From NCBI GenBank assembly GCA_024304985.1, contig JAMWZC010000004.1, forward strand, positions 310,001 through 374,000: a DNA stretch of 64,000 nucleotides. Direction: 5' to 3'. Under the pieces are notes generated by a model. The model had not been told where the DNA came from. It saw only the letters and a program-made list of their open reading frames with translations, and did not search any database. Source of the stretch: Paracoccaceae bacterium. GTDB taxonomy: Bacteria; Pseudomonadota; Alphaproteobacteria; Rhodobacterales; Rhodobacteraceae. Of this stretch, positions 51,506 through 56,168 are shown piece by piece (positions within the stretch are counted from its first letter, which is position 1; each line of letters starts with the position of its first letter). The position numbers and the translations under genes are program-made.

Positions 51506-52774
51506 TCAGCCATCCGGCTGGATCAGGAATTCCGTCTCGAACGCCCCCAGCAGGGCGGCGACATCCGCCGCGATCCGCGCGGGGTCGGCATCAGGAAACA
51601 CCTCTGACAGCGTAGCGGCGATCTCGGTGCCGGTGATCGGGTCTTCCAGCAGCGTCCAGATCGCGCGGGCCACCGTGTTGAGGTGGAAATAGCTGTATTC
51701 GGTCGCGTGCCACAGAAACAGATCATCCTGCACGGCGCGCACGGCCACTTGCGGGCTGCGGCGGTAGGCTTGCGTCAGGCTGGCGGGCGGATGCACCACC
51801 GCCTCGATCTCGGCGGGCAGGGCTGAGGCCACCGTTACCCCGGGCGCAGGCAGGACATCCGCGCCAAAGGCCCGGCGCAGCAGATCAACCGCATCTTCCA
51901 GATCGCTATAGACCATCTTGAGGCAAAGCAGGCTTTCGGCCATCCGCGTGACCTGATCGAAATGTTCCGTCCCTTCGCCGGGGGCCGAGATGTTCTGGCG
52001 CACGAGATGCTGCACCGCCTCGGTCGGTTCCATCCGGTGCAGTTGCGCGGGCGCGTCTGGGCCGCGTGCCAGCACGATGAAGGCACTGACGGGCGCGCGT
52101 GTGCCGTGGGGCGCGACATTCGGACCGCAGAGATAGCCATAGCGGCGATCGGCTGGCCCCATATAGGTATCGACATGGGCGCGGAAGGCCGCGCTTACCC
52201 CGGCGGGAAGAGGCAGGCGCAGTCGCGGGGCCAGACCCAGACCGAAAGCCAGACCATCCTCCATCACGGGCAGGATATCGTCGCAGAATACGGTCATGTC
52301 CGGTTCCGCCGTCAGGCGCGAGATCAGGGTGCTTTTGCCCGCCCGCGCGGGACCGGTCAGAACCACCAGATGCCCGTTGATCCGCACAGCCCCGCAATGC
52401 AGACCGAGGCAGCCACGATACTGGTTGCAGAACGCCTGCGAGATGTCGGCAACCACACCACAGGCCGCGCTCGCCGCCATCAACCCGCGCAGCGGCTTGT
52501 CCAGCCACGGGGAATGCAGGTCATAGCGCGCGTTCTGGGCGCGGATCCGGGAGACATGATGCGGCGGATCGGGGGCATCGTCCTGAAGACCCGTCGTCAC
52601 AATCTCGGGTGTCCAGCCGGTCATCAGCGCATTCAGGGCCGACAGCACCTCGTCGGCGTTTTCCAGCACGATGGTGCCGTCAAGGCCGGGATAGCGGAGA
52701 AGTTGCACAACAGGACGAGGGGCGCGCCCAAGGCGCGCCCCGGTGTTGACCTGCGGGTTGTCGCAGGCCGTCAT
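51506..52774 (-). CDS. HPr-kinase-like P-loop domain fused to a PqqD-like domain
   Basis: A 422-residue protein. Residues about 120-310 form a P-loop domain with Walker A GPARAGKST (141-149) and an acidic pair in FCDDILPV (165-166), similar to HPr kinase/phosphorylase-like proteins found in peptide-maturation clusters. Residues about 336-420 resemble PqqD (HLNTVARAIWTLLEDPI and the helical end AALLGAFETEFLIQP), the RiPP leader-binding fold. N-terminal 100 residues are unassigned. The ATG is one base after the stop of the Gly/Ser protein, so they are translated together. I infer a kinase or ATPase that acts on a leader-bearing substrate; the substrate may be the Gly/Ser protein. Confidence 0.78.
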   Translation of the reverse strand: MTACDNPQVNTGARLGRAPRPVVQLLRYPGLDGTIVLENADEVLSALNALMTGWTPEIVTTGLQDDAPDPPHHVSRIRAQNARYDLHSPWLDKPLRGLMAASAACGVVADISQAFCNQYRGCLGLHCGAVRINGHLVVLTGPARAGKSTLISRLTAEPDMTVFCDDILPVMEDGLAFGLGLAPRLRLPLPAGVSAAFRAHVDTYMGPADRRYGYLCGPNVAPHGTRAPVSAFIVLARGPDAPAQLHRMEPTEAVQHLVRQNISAPGEGTEHFDQVTRMAESLLCLKMVYSDLEDAVDLLRRAFGADVLPAPGVTVASALPAEIEAVVHPPASLTQAYRRSPQVAVRAVQDDLFLWHATEYSYFHLNTVARAIWTLLEDPITGTEIAATLSEVFPDADPARIAADVAALLGAFETEFLIQPDG

Positions 52775-52775
52775 G

Positions 52776-53147
52776 TCATCGCCGTCCCGCGCCCGAAGGA
52801 CCGGAGGATCCACTGGGACCAGACCGCCCAGACGAACTGGACGAACCGGAAGAGCTGGATGAGCCCGACGGTCCGGAGGGGCCCGAGGCGCCAGAGGCAC
52901 CCGAGGCACCCGACGCGCCCGAGCCGCCCGGACCAGACCCGCCCGAACCGCCCGGACCCGAGCCGCCGCCCGATCCGCCTGCCCCGCCACCGGAGCCGCC
53001 TGCACCACCGCCGGAGCCGCCGCCCGAGGCGTGGGCCGCCCCCAGATGCATCATGACCGGCGCGACGTAGAGGACACCCGTCGCAAGTCCCAGACGCGCC
53101 AGCAGAGCGCGACGCGACACAGCCGTCTTGGAGTTCTGTTCTGACAT
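52776..53147 (-). CDS. Secreted Gly/Ser/Ala/Pro protein with twin-arginine-like leader
   Basis: A 123-residue protein starting MSEQNSKTAVSRRALLARLG. The leader has SRRALLARLG, a hydrophobic stretch and a likely cleavage AHA-SG after residue 40. The mature part (41-123) contains only Gly, Ser, Ala, Pro and three Arg, in patterns such as SGPGGSG, GASGASG and SSSSSG, with triplets Gly-X-Ser and a C-terminal GAGRR. The ATG at 53147 has AAGGA seven bases upstream. No known family; the leader closely resembles that of the subtilisin gene upstream. Confidence 0.75.
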   Translation of the reverse strand: MSEQNSKTAVSRRALLARLGLATGVLYVAPVMMHLGAAHASGGGSGGGAGGSGGGAGGSGGGSGPGGSGGSGPGGSGASGASGASGASGPSGPSGSSSSSGSSSSSGRSGPSGSSGPSGAGRR

Positions 53148-53218
53148 GTTGTTATCCTTTTCTCTCATCTCACCGCATCAATGAGCGGCTATGTCAGAAG
53201 AACGATGTCCTCTGGTTC

Positions 53219-54595
53219 CTATTCCCCGCTTACCGAAAAAATCTCGCTCGCGTCGCCCTTGCAGTAGCCCGGAGCGGAAACCAGCCCATTGCCGAACACC
53301 GGGTCATAGCCCGCCTCGCCCAGATCCTGCGCGCAATCGACCATCTGGCCGATACTCAGATCCAGCGGGGTGTCCGGTTCCCGCAGTCGTTGCACCGCCA
53401 AGGCTGCGGTGACGAAGGGAACGGCAAAGGAGGTGCCCGATTTCAGACGCCCCCCCGAGATGGAGGCCGCCGTCCACACGCCGACACCGGGGGCGGCAAG
53501 GCTGATATAGGGGCCTTGATTGGCCTGCCTGTAAATGCGCTTCTGACTGTCCACCGCCGTCACGGCCAGCACATGTGGCCATGCCGCCGGATAGACCGGC
53601 GGTGCCCCGGCGCCACCATTGCCCGCAGCGGCCACAAGGGCCACAGACCGCGCCACGGCCTCTTCGGTGATCTGGCGCAGCACGGCATTCTCGGGCCCCG
53701 AGAAGCTGAGATTGATGACGCTGACCCCTTGGTCCAGCAGCAGGTCGATGGCATTGGCCAAAGAAAAGGCATCCGCCTGATCGCCACTGCCACCGCGATG
53801 GAACGCCTCGACCGCGATCAACTCGGCATAGGGCAGCAGCCCCGGCACACGGCTGTCCAGCCGCCCCAGCAGCATCGCGGCGATGGCGGTGCCATGCTGG
53901 CGGCCCGCCGCGTCGCGATCCCCCAGATCGGTCTGGTAAACCGTCAGCTTCTGCCCGGCCAGCGCCTCGTGATCGACATTGATTCCGGTGTCGATCATCC
54001 CGATTTTCGGCGCAAAGGCACTGGGCCAGCCGGACCAGCCGATCATCTGATGCGCGGCGCAGTCTCCATCGCGGCACAGAAAGTCATCCGGCACATAAAG
54101 GTGGTTCACATCCGCCGTCGCCTGAGGCAACAGCCCGGCCAGTTCGGCGCGCGCCTGATCGGGGCTGCGTCCTGCCGGCAGACCCAAACGGACCAGTGTG
54201 CGATCCAGCGACGCATTTTGCCGTGATCCCAGCACGCGGTAGCCGACAGCTTCCGCAGCCGCCAGACTCTGGTTGGAGGGAAGGGTCAGCACGATCTCGG
54301 GCGGAGGAGGCGGGGCGCGACGGCGCGGCGCCTGCTGGACCGGAGCGCGCTGGCGGGAGGCGCGCTGGAACGGATTGCCCCCCTCACCACTCTCACCGGG
54401 ACCCGAGCCGCCGCTGGCACCTCCGCTTGCGCCGCCGCTGCCACCGCCACCGCTGCCGCCGCCCGAGGCGCGCGCCATCCCCAAGGCCGTCAGCGCGGGT
54501 GCGGTATAGGCCATCGTGCCGGCCAGACCGATCCGCCGCAGCAGGGCACGGCGCGCCAGATCGGGGCCTTTGGGTTCGGTTGGTTTGCTGGACAA
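53219..54595 (-). CDS. S8 family serine peptidase (subtilisin-like) with Gly/Ser-rich prodomain
   Basis: A 458-residue secreted protease. From a TTG start at 54595 (AAGGAG 11 bases upstream) it reads MSSKPTEPKGPDLARRALLR, a twin-arginine-like leader, then a Gly/Ser segment (44-73) and a Pro/Arg-rich linker. The subtilase triad is complete: Asp202 in IDTGIN, His234 in GRQHGTAIAAM, oxyanion Asn326 in AAAGNGGAG, and Ser389 in KSGTSFAVPF. A pair of cysteines (FLCRDGDCAAH) and another pair near the C-terminus may form disulfides. It is the first gene of a three-gene string with the Gly/Ser protein and the HprK-like fusion. Confidence 0.87.
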   Translation of the reverse strand: MSSKPTEPKGPDLARRALLRRIGLAGTMAYTAPALTALGMARASGGGSGGGGSGGASGGASGGSGPGESGEGGNPFQRASRQRAPVQQAPRRRAPPPPPEIVLTLPSNQSLAAAEAVGYRVLGSRQNASLDRTLVRLGLPAGRSPDQARAELAGLLPQATADVNHLYVPDDFLCRDGDCAAHQMIGWSGWPSAFAPKIGMIDTGINVDHEALAGQKLTVYQTDLGDRDAAGRQHGTAIAAMLLGRLDSRVPGLLPYAELIAVEAFHRGGSGDQADAFSLANAIDLLLDQGVSVINLSFSGPENAVLRQITEEAVARSVALVAAAGNGGAGAPPVYPAAWPHVLAVTAVDSQKRIYRQANQGPYISLAAPGVGVWTAASISGGRLKSGTSFAVPFVTAALAVQRLREPDTPLDLSIGQMVDCAQDLGEAGYDPVFGNGLVSAPGYCKGDASEIFSVSGE

Positions 54596-54746
54596 GGCGT
54601 GTCTCCTTTTCGGGCGCGGGTGCAGCGGGATATAGCCAGATCGTGGCCAAAGTCCCCTATCTTGGTTTCGAACACGGGCCTTTGCGGCACGACCCGGCCA
54701 TGTTCGGCAGAAACGGGCGGATCTTCGCAGGGCTTCGCATGACGAA

Positions 54747-54771
54747 AACGCGGCCAACCCGGATAAATTCC
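54747..54771 (-). promoter_or_regulatory. Putative ECF-type promoter for the peptidase operon
   Basis: On the minus strand: GGAAT, a 16-base spacer, then CGTT. It lies about 150 bases upstream of the peptidase start. The same elements with a 17-base spacer occur on the plus strand facing the sigma gene. The pattern is like the GGAAC-N16/17-CGTT class used by several alphaproteobacterial ECF sigma factors. Confidence 0.55.
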
Positions 54772-54805
54772 GTAGATCCTGAAAAAATGCGACTATCTCA
54801 CATGA

Positions 54806-54827
54806 CACCGGGAATAATGTTCCGGTG
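54806..54827. promoter_or_regulatory. Imperfect inverted repeat over the sigma-gene promoter
   Basis: CACCGG and CCGGTG are perfect six-base arms around ten bases (GAATAATGTT). The repeat covers the GGAAT element of the plus-strand promoter candidate and could be a binding site for a repressor or activator. Confidence 0.45.
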
Positions 54828-54836
54828 CCTTGCGTT
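54811..54836 (+). promoter_or_regulatory. Putative ECF-type promoter for the sigma/anti-sigma operon
   Basis: GGAAT at 54811-54815, a 17-base spacer, then CGTT at 54833-54836, about 55 bases before the GTG of the sigma gene. Matching motifs on both strands of one 296-base gap suggest the sigma factor drives both divergent units. Confidence 0.55.
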
Positions 54837-54891
54837 GTTTGTCCAGAGCCGGATCTGACCGGACGGCCCACCAGAAGAAAGTGCTTCACCC

Positions 54892-55431
54892 GTGTCTGAT
54901 GTGATCCGCAACGAGATGATCCGGTTGCTGCCCCGTCTGCGGGCCTTTGGCCGCAGCCTGACGGGCGTTCAGGATCAGGCGGATGACCTTGTGCAGCAGA
55001 CCGTGGAAAAGGCGCTGCGCCACATCGACAGCTATGCGCCGGGCACCCGGCTGGACAGTTGGATGTTCCGCATCATGCGCAACACCTGGATCGACGGGCA
55101 CCGCGCCCGCCGCCCCACGGTGACACTGGACGACGTGGAAACCGTCACGCCGCTGGTCGGAGAGGACGGGCGCGATGTGACCGAGAACCGGATCTATCTG
55201 GCGCAGGTCCGCCGGGCGATGCAGGCGCTGCCGGAAGAGCAGCGGACCGTGCTGATACTGGTCTGCGTCGAGGGCCTGCGCTACCGCGAGGTGGCCGAGG
55301 CGCTGGGCATCCCCGAAGGCACGGTCATGAGCCGCCTGTCGCGGGGCAGGCTGGCGCTGGCCGAAGCCTTGGCCGGAACAACCCGCACCGAGGCTCCGGT
55401 GACCGGACAGATACAGGGATTGACCCCATGA
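54892..55431 (+). CDS. ECF-type RNA polymerase sigma factor
   Basis: A 179-residue sigma-70 family factor. The sigma-2 region (about residues 10-78) includes DDLVQQTVEKAL and WMFRIMRNTWIDGHR, and sigma-4 (about 108-160) includes LPEEQRTVLILVCVEGLRYREV and the helix-turn-helix EALGIPEGTVMSRLSRGR. The start is GTG at 54892. It overlaps the downstream gene by four bases (ATGA), the usual layout for a sigma and its anti-sigma factor. Confidence 0.9.
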   Translation: MSDVIRNEMIRLLPRLRAFGRSLTGVQDQADDLVQQTVEKALRHIDSYAPGTRLDSWMFRIMRNTWIDGHRARRPTVTLDDVETVTPLVGEDGRDVTENRIYLAQVRRAMQALPEEQRTVLILVCVEGLRYREVAEALGIPEGTVMSRLSRGRLALAEALAGTTRTEAPVTGQIQGLTP

Positions 55432-56168
55432 CCCATGAAACCGACATGAATGTGAGCGATGAGATGCTGATGGCCCTTGCGGATGGCGAACTGACCGGAC
55501 CCGACGCGAGCAAGCTGATGGCGCGGATCAAGGCCAATCCCGATCTGGCGGCTCGCTATGCGTTGTTCACCGATACCGCCGAGGCGCTGCGACAGGCGAT
55601 GGACCCCGGACCCGTGCCGGATGCCCTGATCTCGACGGTGCTGACGGCACCCACGGGACTGGCCCCGACACAGGCGGCGCAGGCGGCGCCTGTGACACCG
55701 TTGCGGCGCAAAGACCGGGCGGCCGCACGGTCGATGGTCTGGCCGATGGCGCTGGCGGCTTCGCTTGCGCTGGCGGTGGGCGTGGGAGGCTTCCTGACAG
55801 GGCGCAGCCTTGCCCCCGCCCCTGTCGGGCTGGGAACAGCCGCAGCCGCACTGGCCGGGACACCGACGGGCGGCAGCGTCACGCTGGCCGATGGCAGCAT
55901 GGCGCGGGCGCTGGGCAGTTTCGCGACCGATCTGGGCTTGTGCCGGTTGATCGTGGTGGACGCGGCCGATGGTCACGCGGATCGTGCGGTGGTCTGTCAG
56001 GCCGAGGATTCCGCATGGCGCACGGCGCTTTCGGTAACCGAAGGCGGCGCGGGCATGTTCCTGCCCGCATCGGACATGGCCGTCGGCGTGATCGACGAAT
56101 TTCTGGACGGCATCAGTGCCGGGGCGGCCATGACGCCCGAGGCGGAGGCACAGGCGCTGTCGCGCTGA
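55428..56168 (+). CDS. Probable anti-sigma factor
   Basis: A 246-residue protein with an N-terminal anti-sigma-like helix region (SDEMLMALADGELTGPDASKLM), one membrane segment near residues 101-125 (MVWPMALAASLALAVGVGGF) and a periplasmic C-terminal part with two cysteines. The N-terminus lacks the zinc HxxxCxxC motif. Coupled to the sigma gene by ATGA. It would hold the sigma factor at the membrane until an outside signal releases it. Confidence 0.78.
   Translation: MTHETDMNVSDEMLMALADGELTGPDASKLMARIKANPDLAARYALFTDTAEALRQAMDPGPVPDALISTVLTAPTGLAPTQAAQAAPVTPLRRKDRAAARSMVWPMALAASLALAVGVGGFLTGRSLAPAPVGLGTAAAALAGTPTGGSVTLADGSMARALGSFATDLGLCRLIVVDAADGHADRAVVCQAEDSAWRTALSVTEGGAGMFLPASDMAVGVIDEFLDGISAGAAMTPEAEAQALSR

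Follow-up and report, generated by a model that had tools for sequence, protein, structure and literature searches.

A candidate leader-guided serine kinase and its Ser/Thr-repeat clients at a divergent sigma-factor locus of a Paracoccaceae bacterium

A divergent five-gene locus in the genome of a Paracoccaceae bacterium (assembly GCA_024304985.1) probably encodes a leader-guided serine kinase for exported clients with Ser/Thr-repeat cores, with export through the twin-arginine translocation (Tat) pathway and, in the branch to which this locus belongs, control by an extracytoplasmic function (ECF) sigma factor. The locus occupies positions 51506 to 56168 of the window, the 64,000-nucleotide stretch of contig JAMWZC010000004.1 (positions 310,001 to 374,000, forward strand) that was analysed. 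It consists of two divergent transcription units: the plus strand carries the genes for an ECF sigma factor and an anti-sigma factor, and the minus strand those for a subtilisin-like (S8) protease, a Gly/Ser-repeat protein and a fusion of an HprK-like kinase with a PqqD fold. A preliminary description of the same DNA had recognised this arrangement, and the locus is real in that all five genes were located and its parts recur together in other genomes.

In the mechanism proposed here, the PqqD domain would act as the recognition element (RRE) of a ribosomally synthesized and post-translationally modified peptide (RiPP) pathway, gripping a YxxPx[hydrophobic] motif that the clients carry within their signal peptides. 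The HprK-like domain would then phosphorylate Ser or Thr at about every third residue of a low-complexity core, the modified client would leave the cell by the Tat pathway, and signal peptidase would cleave at an AxA site; the signal peptide would serve as RiPP leader and export signal at once. Its chief client would be the Gly/Ser protein, with the protease, exported and possessing an active domain of its own, as the second; a third would be encoded elsewhere in the same genome. In the window's branch, the ECF sigma factor would drive transcription of its own operon, of the protease gene and of the unit formed by client and kinase.

A conserved pair of genes

The conserved core of the locus is two genes, one for the client and one for the fusion. 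The window's Gly/Ser-repeat gene (52776 to 53147, minus strand; 123 aa, leader plus repeat core) has its ATG behind AAAAGGA, and the fusion gene (51506 to 52774, minus strand; 422 aa) begins with an ATG at 52774, 1 nt after the client stop codon; a GTG start that would lengthen the fusion to 500 aa runs into the Gly/Ser gene and is improbable. If an earlier ATG is taken as its start, the client has 41 Gly and 32 Ser among 130 residues.

Relatives of the fusion were collected from 84,980 species genomes, and counts out of 80 refer to the best 80 of the 134 found. Genes in the fetched loci (L numbers) were called by a script of our own and leader open reading frames (ORFs) were added from a leader profile, which for the linkage count was trained on 29 leaders from the window and a sample of its family. 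In 76 of the 80 loci a leader ORF precedes the fusion on the same strand and ends no more than 500 nt before it, at a median gap of 13 nt. Seven of the 80 repeat family-sample loci, and among these L059, L081, L082, L083, L087 and L125 repeat training loci (L076, the same as L033, does not); leaving out those six gives 70 of 74. As for the four loci that have no upstream leader gene, the sequence of L054 and L069 is cut off by a contig end close to the fusion, and in L093 and L095 the kinase ORF has no PqqD. The constant feature is thus a short gene just upstream of the fusion, in which a conserved leader is followed by a low-complexity core. In a 398-genome sample of the phylum, which may overlap the 80, seven genomes including the window's own have the full fusion, and a leader gene adjoins it in all six others (E 2.3e-14 to 5.1e-9). 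Conservation of the neighbourhood in other genomes, on which the preliminary description had staked its reading, was found for client and fusion.

L093 and L095 are of some interest in themselves. Both come from Neomegalonema, and their kinases (L093:5995-6945 and L095:5953-6882) belong to the fusion's family with an ORF that contains no PqqD part and no leader gene nearby.

Leader and fusion also go together at the level of whole genomes. Among 295 genomes of the window's family, 36 have some match to the fusion and 23 a long match, its own genome included. A profile built from 42 leaders of other loci, some of which may come from species also represented among the genomes tested, finds the leader in all 23 fusion-bearing genomes at E 7.9e-10 or better, and its best value among 22 fusion-lacking genomes, none of which has a strong match, is 5.9e-5. 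The fusion-lacking genomes were picked by hand, 16 from among those unmatched and 6 that match the fusion weakly and in part; any leader match at E 0.01 or better is seen in 5 of the 22 with this profile and in 6 with an earlier one. The non-circular count agrees with the earlier search of 44 genomes (strong in 22 of 22 with the fusion, 0 of 22 without), which was partly circular by construction, 20 of its 22 fusion-bearing genomes having supplied leaders to the profile. Low-complexity proteins do turn up easily in GC-rich DNA, and an ordinary Tat substrate might by accident lie beside an unrelated kinase. Given the linkage in 76 of 80 loci, the co-occurrence, and the absence of a leader gene where PqqD is absent, such an accident is barely credible.

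The leader accompanies the fusion in trans as well, since three fusion-bearing genomes hold strong leaders away from it: the window's own, G026 and G206. The unlinked client of the window's genome (L134:6022-6345, on contig C12) has a core with SRPSRSRPSRYSRPS and stands beside a VWA_CoxE-like gene that scores just under the Pfam cut-off. In G026 a leader-bearing protease and its ECF pair lie apart from the kinase, and the unlinked leader protein of G206 (L136) consists of GGSSS repeats (E 8.6e-9, 42-leader profile). Two observations may be added here: six of the 80 loci, L065 among them, have close to the fusion a gene whose start is very similar to that of L134:6022-6345, and a signal peptidase S26 gene (L136:6656-7213) lies downstream of the GGSSS protein.

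Fusion carriers are proteobacteria and some sulfate reducers, among them Roseovarius, Paracoccus, Rhodovulum, Yoonia, Limnobacter, Oxalobacter, Halomonas, Vreelandella, Guyparkeria, Desulfobulbus and Mailhella; some are metagenome bins. The fusion alignment comprises 98 full-length rows, the window and 97 others, seven of which repeat the same contigs, giving 91 distinct sequences; L053, with separate kinase and PqqD genes, and the truncated L052 were kept out of fusion counts. In a tree of these rows, with group labels assigned by hand, the 19 gammaproteobacterial rows form one group, the 25 rows with protease and ECF genes fall inside a group of 48, and the 7 rows with two-component genes fall inside a group of 24, neither of the last two groups being pure.

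The leader, the fusion protein and the client cores

By alignment, the Gly/Ser protein and the protease of the window have one common leader. In the client it covers 53025 to 53147 (minus strand, aa 1-41), with R12R13, a hydrophobic stretch and an AHA site, and includes the motif YVAPVM (53052 to 53069, minus strand); in the protease it covers 54464 to 54595 (minus strand, aa 1-44) and includes YTAPAL (54491 to 54508, minus strand). Both fit the pattern of 124 unique leaders from which they were themselves left out. The motif [YW]xxPx[LVIAFYM] is present in all 124, with Tyr in 122 and Trp in 2, and lies 13 residues past RR in 100; RR or RK is found in 123, and an AxA site comes after the motif in 120. 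With its twin arginine, hydrophobic stretch and AxA site the leader looks like a Tat-type signal, and the window's genome (G000) has two TatC matches above cut-off, at C1:464704-465387 and C9:73875-74561.

The motif is not a general property of such N-termini, as [YW]xxP stands at that place in 1 of 25 other N-termini with RR and a hydrophobic stretch from the same loci (window leaders uncounted). It is the motif that most discrete RREs of lasso-peptide pathways bind, given in PMC13381572 as [Y/W]xxPx[L/V/I/A/F/Y]. Its last position is Met in 37 of the 124 leaders, and all fit the YxxPx[V/L/I/F/A] form of the linear polyphosphorylated peptides (LPPs) if Met is also allowed, with Trp for Tyr in two. 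Those two Trp leaders are both clients of locus L097, as would be expected if one RRE reads both.

Profile search was the test that the preliminary description had set for its PqqD assignment, and PF05402 indeed matches aa 361-415 of the fusion (E 5.8e-11, 43 bits against a cut-off of 23.4), inside a C-terminal domain at 51515 to 51769 (minus strand, aa 336-420). An AlphaFold2 model built from 91 sequences has a mean predicted local distance difference test (pLDDT) score of 92.2 and a predicted TM-score (pTM) of 0.86. In Foldseek comparisons its C-terminal part matches TbiB1 (5v1v; target TM-score 0.87, root mean square deviation 2.0 Å), the winged-helix fold of RREs, and its kinase part (51860 to 52711, minus strand, aa 22-305, delimited by alignment and fold) matches PEPCK and HprK folds, in keeping with the HprK-PqqD fusion first described. 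A profile of 22 relatives, compared with solved structures, finds TbiB1 (1e-7), LppB (9x8z; 3.1e-6), TfuB1 (5e-5) and HPr kinase (3tqf; 8.6e-5). The kinase part has no Pfam match above cut-off, and membership of HprK-related kinase A (NCBIfam TIGR04352) was rejected, the match of E 1.2e-9 and 37.7 bits lying below the equivalog cut-off of 200. A second PqqD of the same genome lies among genes that resemble a PQQ operon by eye.

Residues of both domains are conserved where catalysis and motif binding would be expected to depend on them. In the kinase, none of the 91 distinct sequences departs from H126, K147, D165 or D166, and G146, R184, R186 and R237 are likewise invariant in the alignment. 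The first four match the His-Lys-Asp-Asp set of the lasso-peptide kinases, enzymes that put one or several phosphates on Ser and for which mutation is reported to show that the set is required (PMC9266682, section 5). In the RRE, the counterpart of LppB D70 is D404, which is Asp in 97 of 98 rows, and that of LppB N33 is N366 (Asn in 83, Asp in 13 and Ser in 2 of the 98); the side chains of D70 and N33 touch the YxxP motif in the LppB crystal structure (PMC13381572, section 8).

The cores that follow the leader vary widely, being made of Gly/Ser, SRP, SYSRP, SAA, SEP or TRP repeats. Ser/Thr at every third residue is nevertheless a common property of these otherwise unlike sequences. After two cores of fewer than 15 aa had been dropped from the spacing test, Ser/Thr pairs at spacing 3 numbered 995 against 494 in shuffles (101 cores), spacings 6 and 9 were raised 1.63 and 1.54 times over shuffles, and the other spacings up to 8 ranged from 0.65 to 1.07. 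Taken singly, 76 of the 101 cores have a significant period of three.

The preliminary description had suggested that the fusion reads the leader of the Gly/Ser protein and modifies its serines. The first half of this suggestion gains from the conserved YxxP leader, and the second is a good inference because the catalytic residues of the kinase are invariant and the Ser/Thr spacing is common to unlike cores, though both steps are still drawn from sequence comparison.

The redox enzyme maturation chaperones such as TorD/DmsD are cytoplasmic proteins that bind a Tat signal peptide before export. The fusion might itself be an export chaperone rather than a modifying enzyme, holding the Tat signal while nucleotide binding times release, with the serines no more than a neutral linker or adhesive. 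The position of the motif, in the hydrophobic part of a Tat-type signal, would suit this role, as would the fact that the cores are alike in little but Ser/Thr spacing and are often plain Gly/Ser. We consider it unlikely all the same, in view of a His-Lys-Asp-Asp set that never varies and of a spacing that unlike cores have in common. TorD and DmsD, moreover, are of a different family, and here the binding domain is joined to a kinase.

Kinase and PqqD parts also occur in other arrangements. In four loci (L147, L148, L149 and L150) the fusion is permuted, with a PqqD-like part first and an HprK-like part second; in L147 to L149, the three whose neighbours were inspected, the next gene resembles a nucleotidyltransferase by eye, and a divergent gene of L149 (2791-3036) encodes 81 aa with an N-terminus of twin-arginine type. 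These permuted proteins may represent a related but separate pathway. L102 has a second gene of the fusion's cluster in tandem (L102:7844-9076), with a 52-aa leader-type ORF between the copies. In L146 (1480-2582) separate kinase and PqqD genes lie downstream of a pair that by eye is like a sensor kinase and regulator, and no leader match was found there.

The protease and the regulatory genes

The protease gene (53219 to 54595, minus strand) has a TTG start behind AAAAGGAGAC and encodes the client-type leader, a Gly/Ser linker and a Peptidase_S8 domain (Pfam; E 2.2e-27, 96.6 bits against a cut-off of 21.8). Assignments as QhpE or mycosin were rejected, the NCBIfam scores of 76.3 and 121 bits being below the cut-offs of 165 and 278.75. 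A protease is present in at least 24 of the 80 loci, a lower bound in that seven of the 80 have less than 4 kb of sequence upstream of the fusion, and it is lacking in the sequence examined for the other 56.

The preliminary description had the protease trim the Gly/Ser protein, a part of its reading that we set aside. The protease is probably a second, exported client rather than a leader peptidase, because it bears the client-type leader in 22 of the 24 loci and is unlinked from the kinase in G026; the AxA at the end of the leader points instead to an ordinary signal peptidase. The linker of the protease was also compared with client cores in 23 loci where the protease bears a leader. It is closer to the core of the same locus than to cores from elsewhere (the observed mean is reached in 0 of 5000 permutations with one-, two- or three-letter words), with the own client ranking fifth of 23 in the median and common ancestry accounting for part of the likeness; the acidic linker of L067 is a clear exception.

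These results also bear on whether the locus makes a true small RiPP, an antimicrobial or signal released by leader removal with the protease as leader peptidase. The RRE, the kinase and the division of the client into leader and core are the anatomy of such a pathway, and a protease does accompany it in 24 of 80 loci. That the protease is itself so often leader-bearing and so often missing, that no cyclase or exporter was recognised among the eight window proteins scanned, and that the cores are repeats of varying sequence make a small product very improbable.

The sigma factor gene (54892 to 55431, plus strand) has a GTG start, with 54901 also possible, and overlaps by 4 nt the gene for the anti-sigma factor (55428 to 56168, plus strand), whose best model scores 37.3 bits against a cut-off of 100. 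All 22 sigma-bearing loci among the 80 also hold the protease, and sigma and anti-sigma genes accompany 22 of the 24 proteases, the exceptions being L090 and L098. The sigma pair is a feature of one branch, and another branch has a two-component system. In the latter (L040, L041, L047, L048, L050 and L051 of the family sample, plus L126) genes for a second leader protein (e.g. L041:9264-9800), a response regulator and a histidine kinase come, in that order, downstream of the fusion; two of these second leader proteins were scanned, and both give weak PepSY matches below cut-off.

Promoter-like sites in the window's branch suggest what the sigma factor may control. The window has a GGAAT-N17-CGTT site directed towards sigma (54811 to 54836, plus strand), a GGAAT-N16-CGTT site towards the protease (54747 to 54771, minus strand) and another over the protease stop codon, towards client and kinase (53201 to 53225, minus strand). 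The pattern GGAAT-N15-18-CGTT was noticed in sigma-protease spacers and then counted there, a post hoc count: a site towards the protease is present in 16 of 19 spacers, towards sigma in 18, and both in 16, with at most 1 in shuffles. For client-side counts the pattern was fixed. It precedes the client in 21 of 22 loci of the window's layout (window included; shuffle mean 0.02), where it often runs over the protease stop codon. Of 55 other loci, 10 have such a site (shuffle mean 0.13), and L073, L076 and L077 among these 10 carry protease and sigma too, in a different state or order. Across the whole genome there are 74 matches against 22 for the reversed pattern, too noisy for a regulon to be listed; a match about 1 kb upstream of the C9 tatC is not claimed as a promoter, the gene calls there being too poor. 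Neither Rfam searches at gathering cut-offs nor tRNA scans gave any hit in the window.

The close company of protease and sigma in these loci, the three ECF-type sites, and the other branch's response regulator, histidine kinase and leader protein with its weak PepSY match could all be read as an envelope-stress circuit, with an ECF or two-component system as its sensor and with client and protease as outputs and feedback parts. The protease would then cleave the anti-sigma factor, and phosphorylation would tune the response. Within the sequence examined, however, 55 of the 80 loci have neither protease, sigma nor a regulator-kinase pair, so this is not the core function, and as an account of the locus we think it improbable.

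A number of observations weigh against a leader-guided serine kinase as well. The candidate unlinked client of G206 (L136) has YVAT where YxxP is expected, and the leader profiles were trained on YxxP leaders, which makes motif-less leaders harder to detect. L044 has Ala at the position of D404 and a leader nonetheless with YxxP, and covariation of the Tyr-to-Trp change with the RRE Asp was rejected, L097 combining Trp leaders with an unchanged D404. The core period is not significant in 25 of 101 cores; L076 has a protease with a different N-terminus and an acidic linker, and the L073 protease is without a leader in frame. No exact ECF-type match occurs at the unlinked client of the window's genome or at the client-kinase unit of G026. 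Gene linkage would also fit a chaperone role without catalysis, and phosphorylated, unfolded repeats are not known to pass through the Tat system.

Leader-guided phosphorylation of exported clients nonetheless remains our preferred reading, and a more far-reaching form of it may tentatively be put forward, doubtful as its sum must be. The locus could belong to a dedicated proteobacterial pathway for secreted phosphoproteins. In it a single RRE-kinase would treat a Tat signal as a RiPP leader, keep the client from export until it has been modified, and phosphorylate the serine repeats. The products would be polyphosphoserine polymers outside the cell, similar in principle to phosvitin or silaffin, along with a phosphorylated secreted protease, and either an ECF sigma factor or two-component genes would turn the pathway on. 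The least certain part is what the client does; our guess is a phosphoserine-rich, cation-binding envelope protein, a role that would fit the link to sensor-type regulators.

If the proposal is true, RiPP leader recognition and Tat export are joined in one protein pair. It offers a testable claim on how bacteria could make heavily phosphorylated exported proteins, with one protein, one short client and one motif. It also suggests a role for genes known only as 'PqqD family protein', the sole annotation of plasmid-borne relatives in 6 of 6 public records, and for low-complexity genes of the kind missed by gene calling in the window.

Relation to known phosphopeptide pathways

No description of the fusion-client system was recognised in the literature searched, which took in few subscription papers and no bioRxiv preprints. 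The statement in the preliminary description that no described system with this exact set was known stands to that extent, and it needs to be set beside close relatives that are known, the LPPs and the phosphorylated lasso peptides.

LPPs (Popov et al. 2026, PMC13381572) are made by a kinase that puts several phosphates on one Ser. According to that paper their clusters consist of separate kinase and RRE genes, an SpI peptidase, a nucleoside triphosphate (NTP) transferase and an MsbA-like transporter, and are considered by the authors to be restricted to Bacillota. Common to LPPs and the present loci are an HprK-like kinase with an RRE and a YxxPx[hydrophobic] leader; LPP clusters have no cyclase, and none was recognised among the eight window proteins scanned. 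The LPP kinase phosphorylates Ser and a signal-peptidase-like enzyme removes the leader, and by analogy counterparts of both steps may exist here. Unlike the discrete RRE of LPP clusters, the RRE here is fused to its kinase; the leader is Tat-like, the cores are Ser/Thr repeats, the protease is likely a client, and the carriers lie outside Bacillota. Nor does the leader alignment fit the full LPP leader consensus, YxxPxVLxHQxIxFETxxS (PMC13381572, section 6). Neither an SpI peptidase, NTP transferase or MsbA-like transporter of LPP type nor a lasso-type macrolactam synthetase or B2 peptidase was recognised among the eight window proteins scanned.

With the phosphorylated lasso peptides (kinases PadeK, ThcoK and SyanK, and their B1 proteins; PMC9266682) the present loci have in common an HprK-like kinase with the His-Lys-Asp-Asp set, an RRE of the TbiB1 type and a [Y/W]xxP leader. 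The target in those peptides is one C-terminal Ser, in contrast to the repeats found here. HprK-related kinase A (TIGR04352) is related in sequence as well, through a model that covers the kinase part only. A lasso-type locus occurs in the window's own family: L053 has a 52-aa precursor-like gene, a 621-aa gene that is cyclase-like by eye, and separate PqqD and HprK genes. Its kinase aligns with the fusion across the catalytic region (hhalign probability 97.7).

By analogy, then, the fusion-client system would work like the LPP and phosphorylated lasso pathways, yet it lacks two of the LPP features tested, a discrete RRE and the full leader consensus. If this is true, HprK/RRE chemistry would extend from small peptides of Bacillota to repeat proteins and a protease in bacteria such as Roseovarius, Limnobacter, Halomonas and Desulfobulbus.

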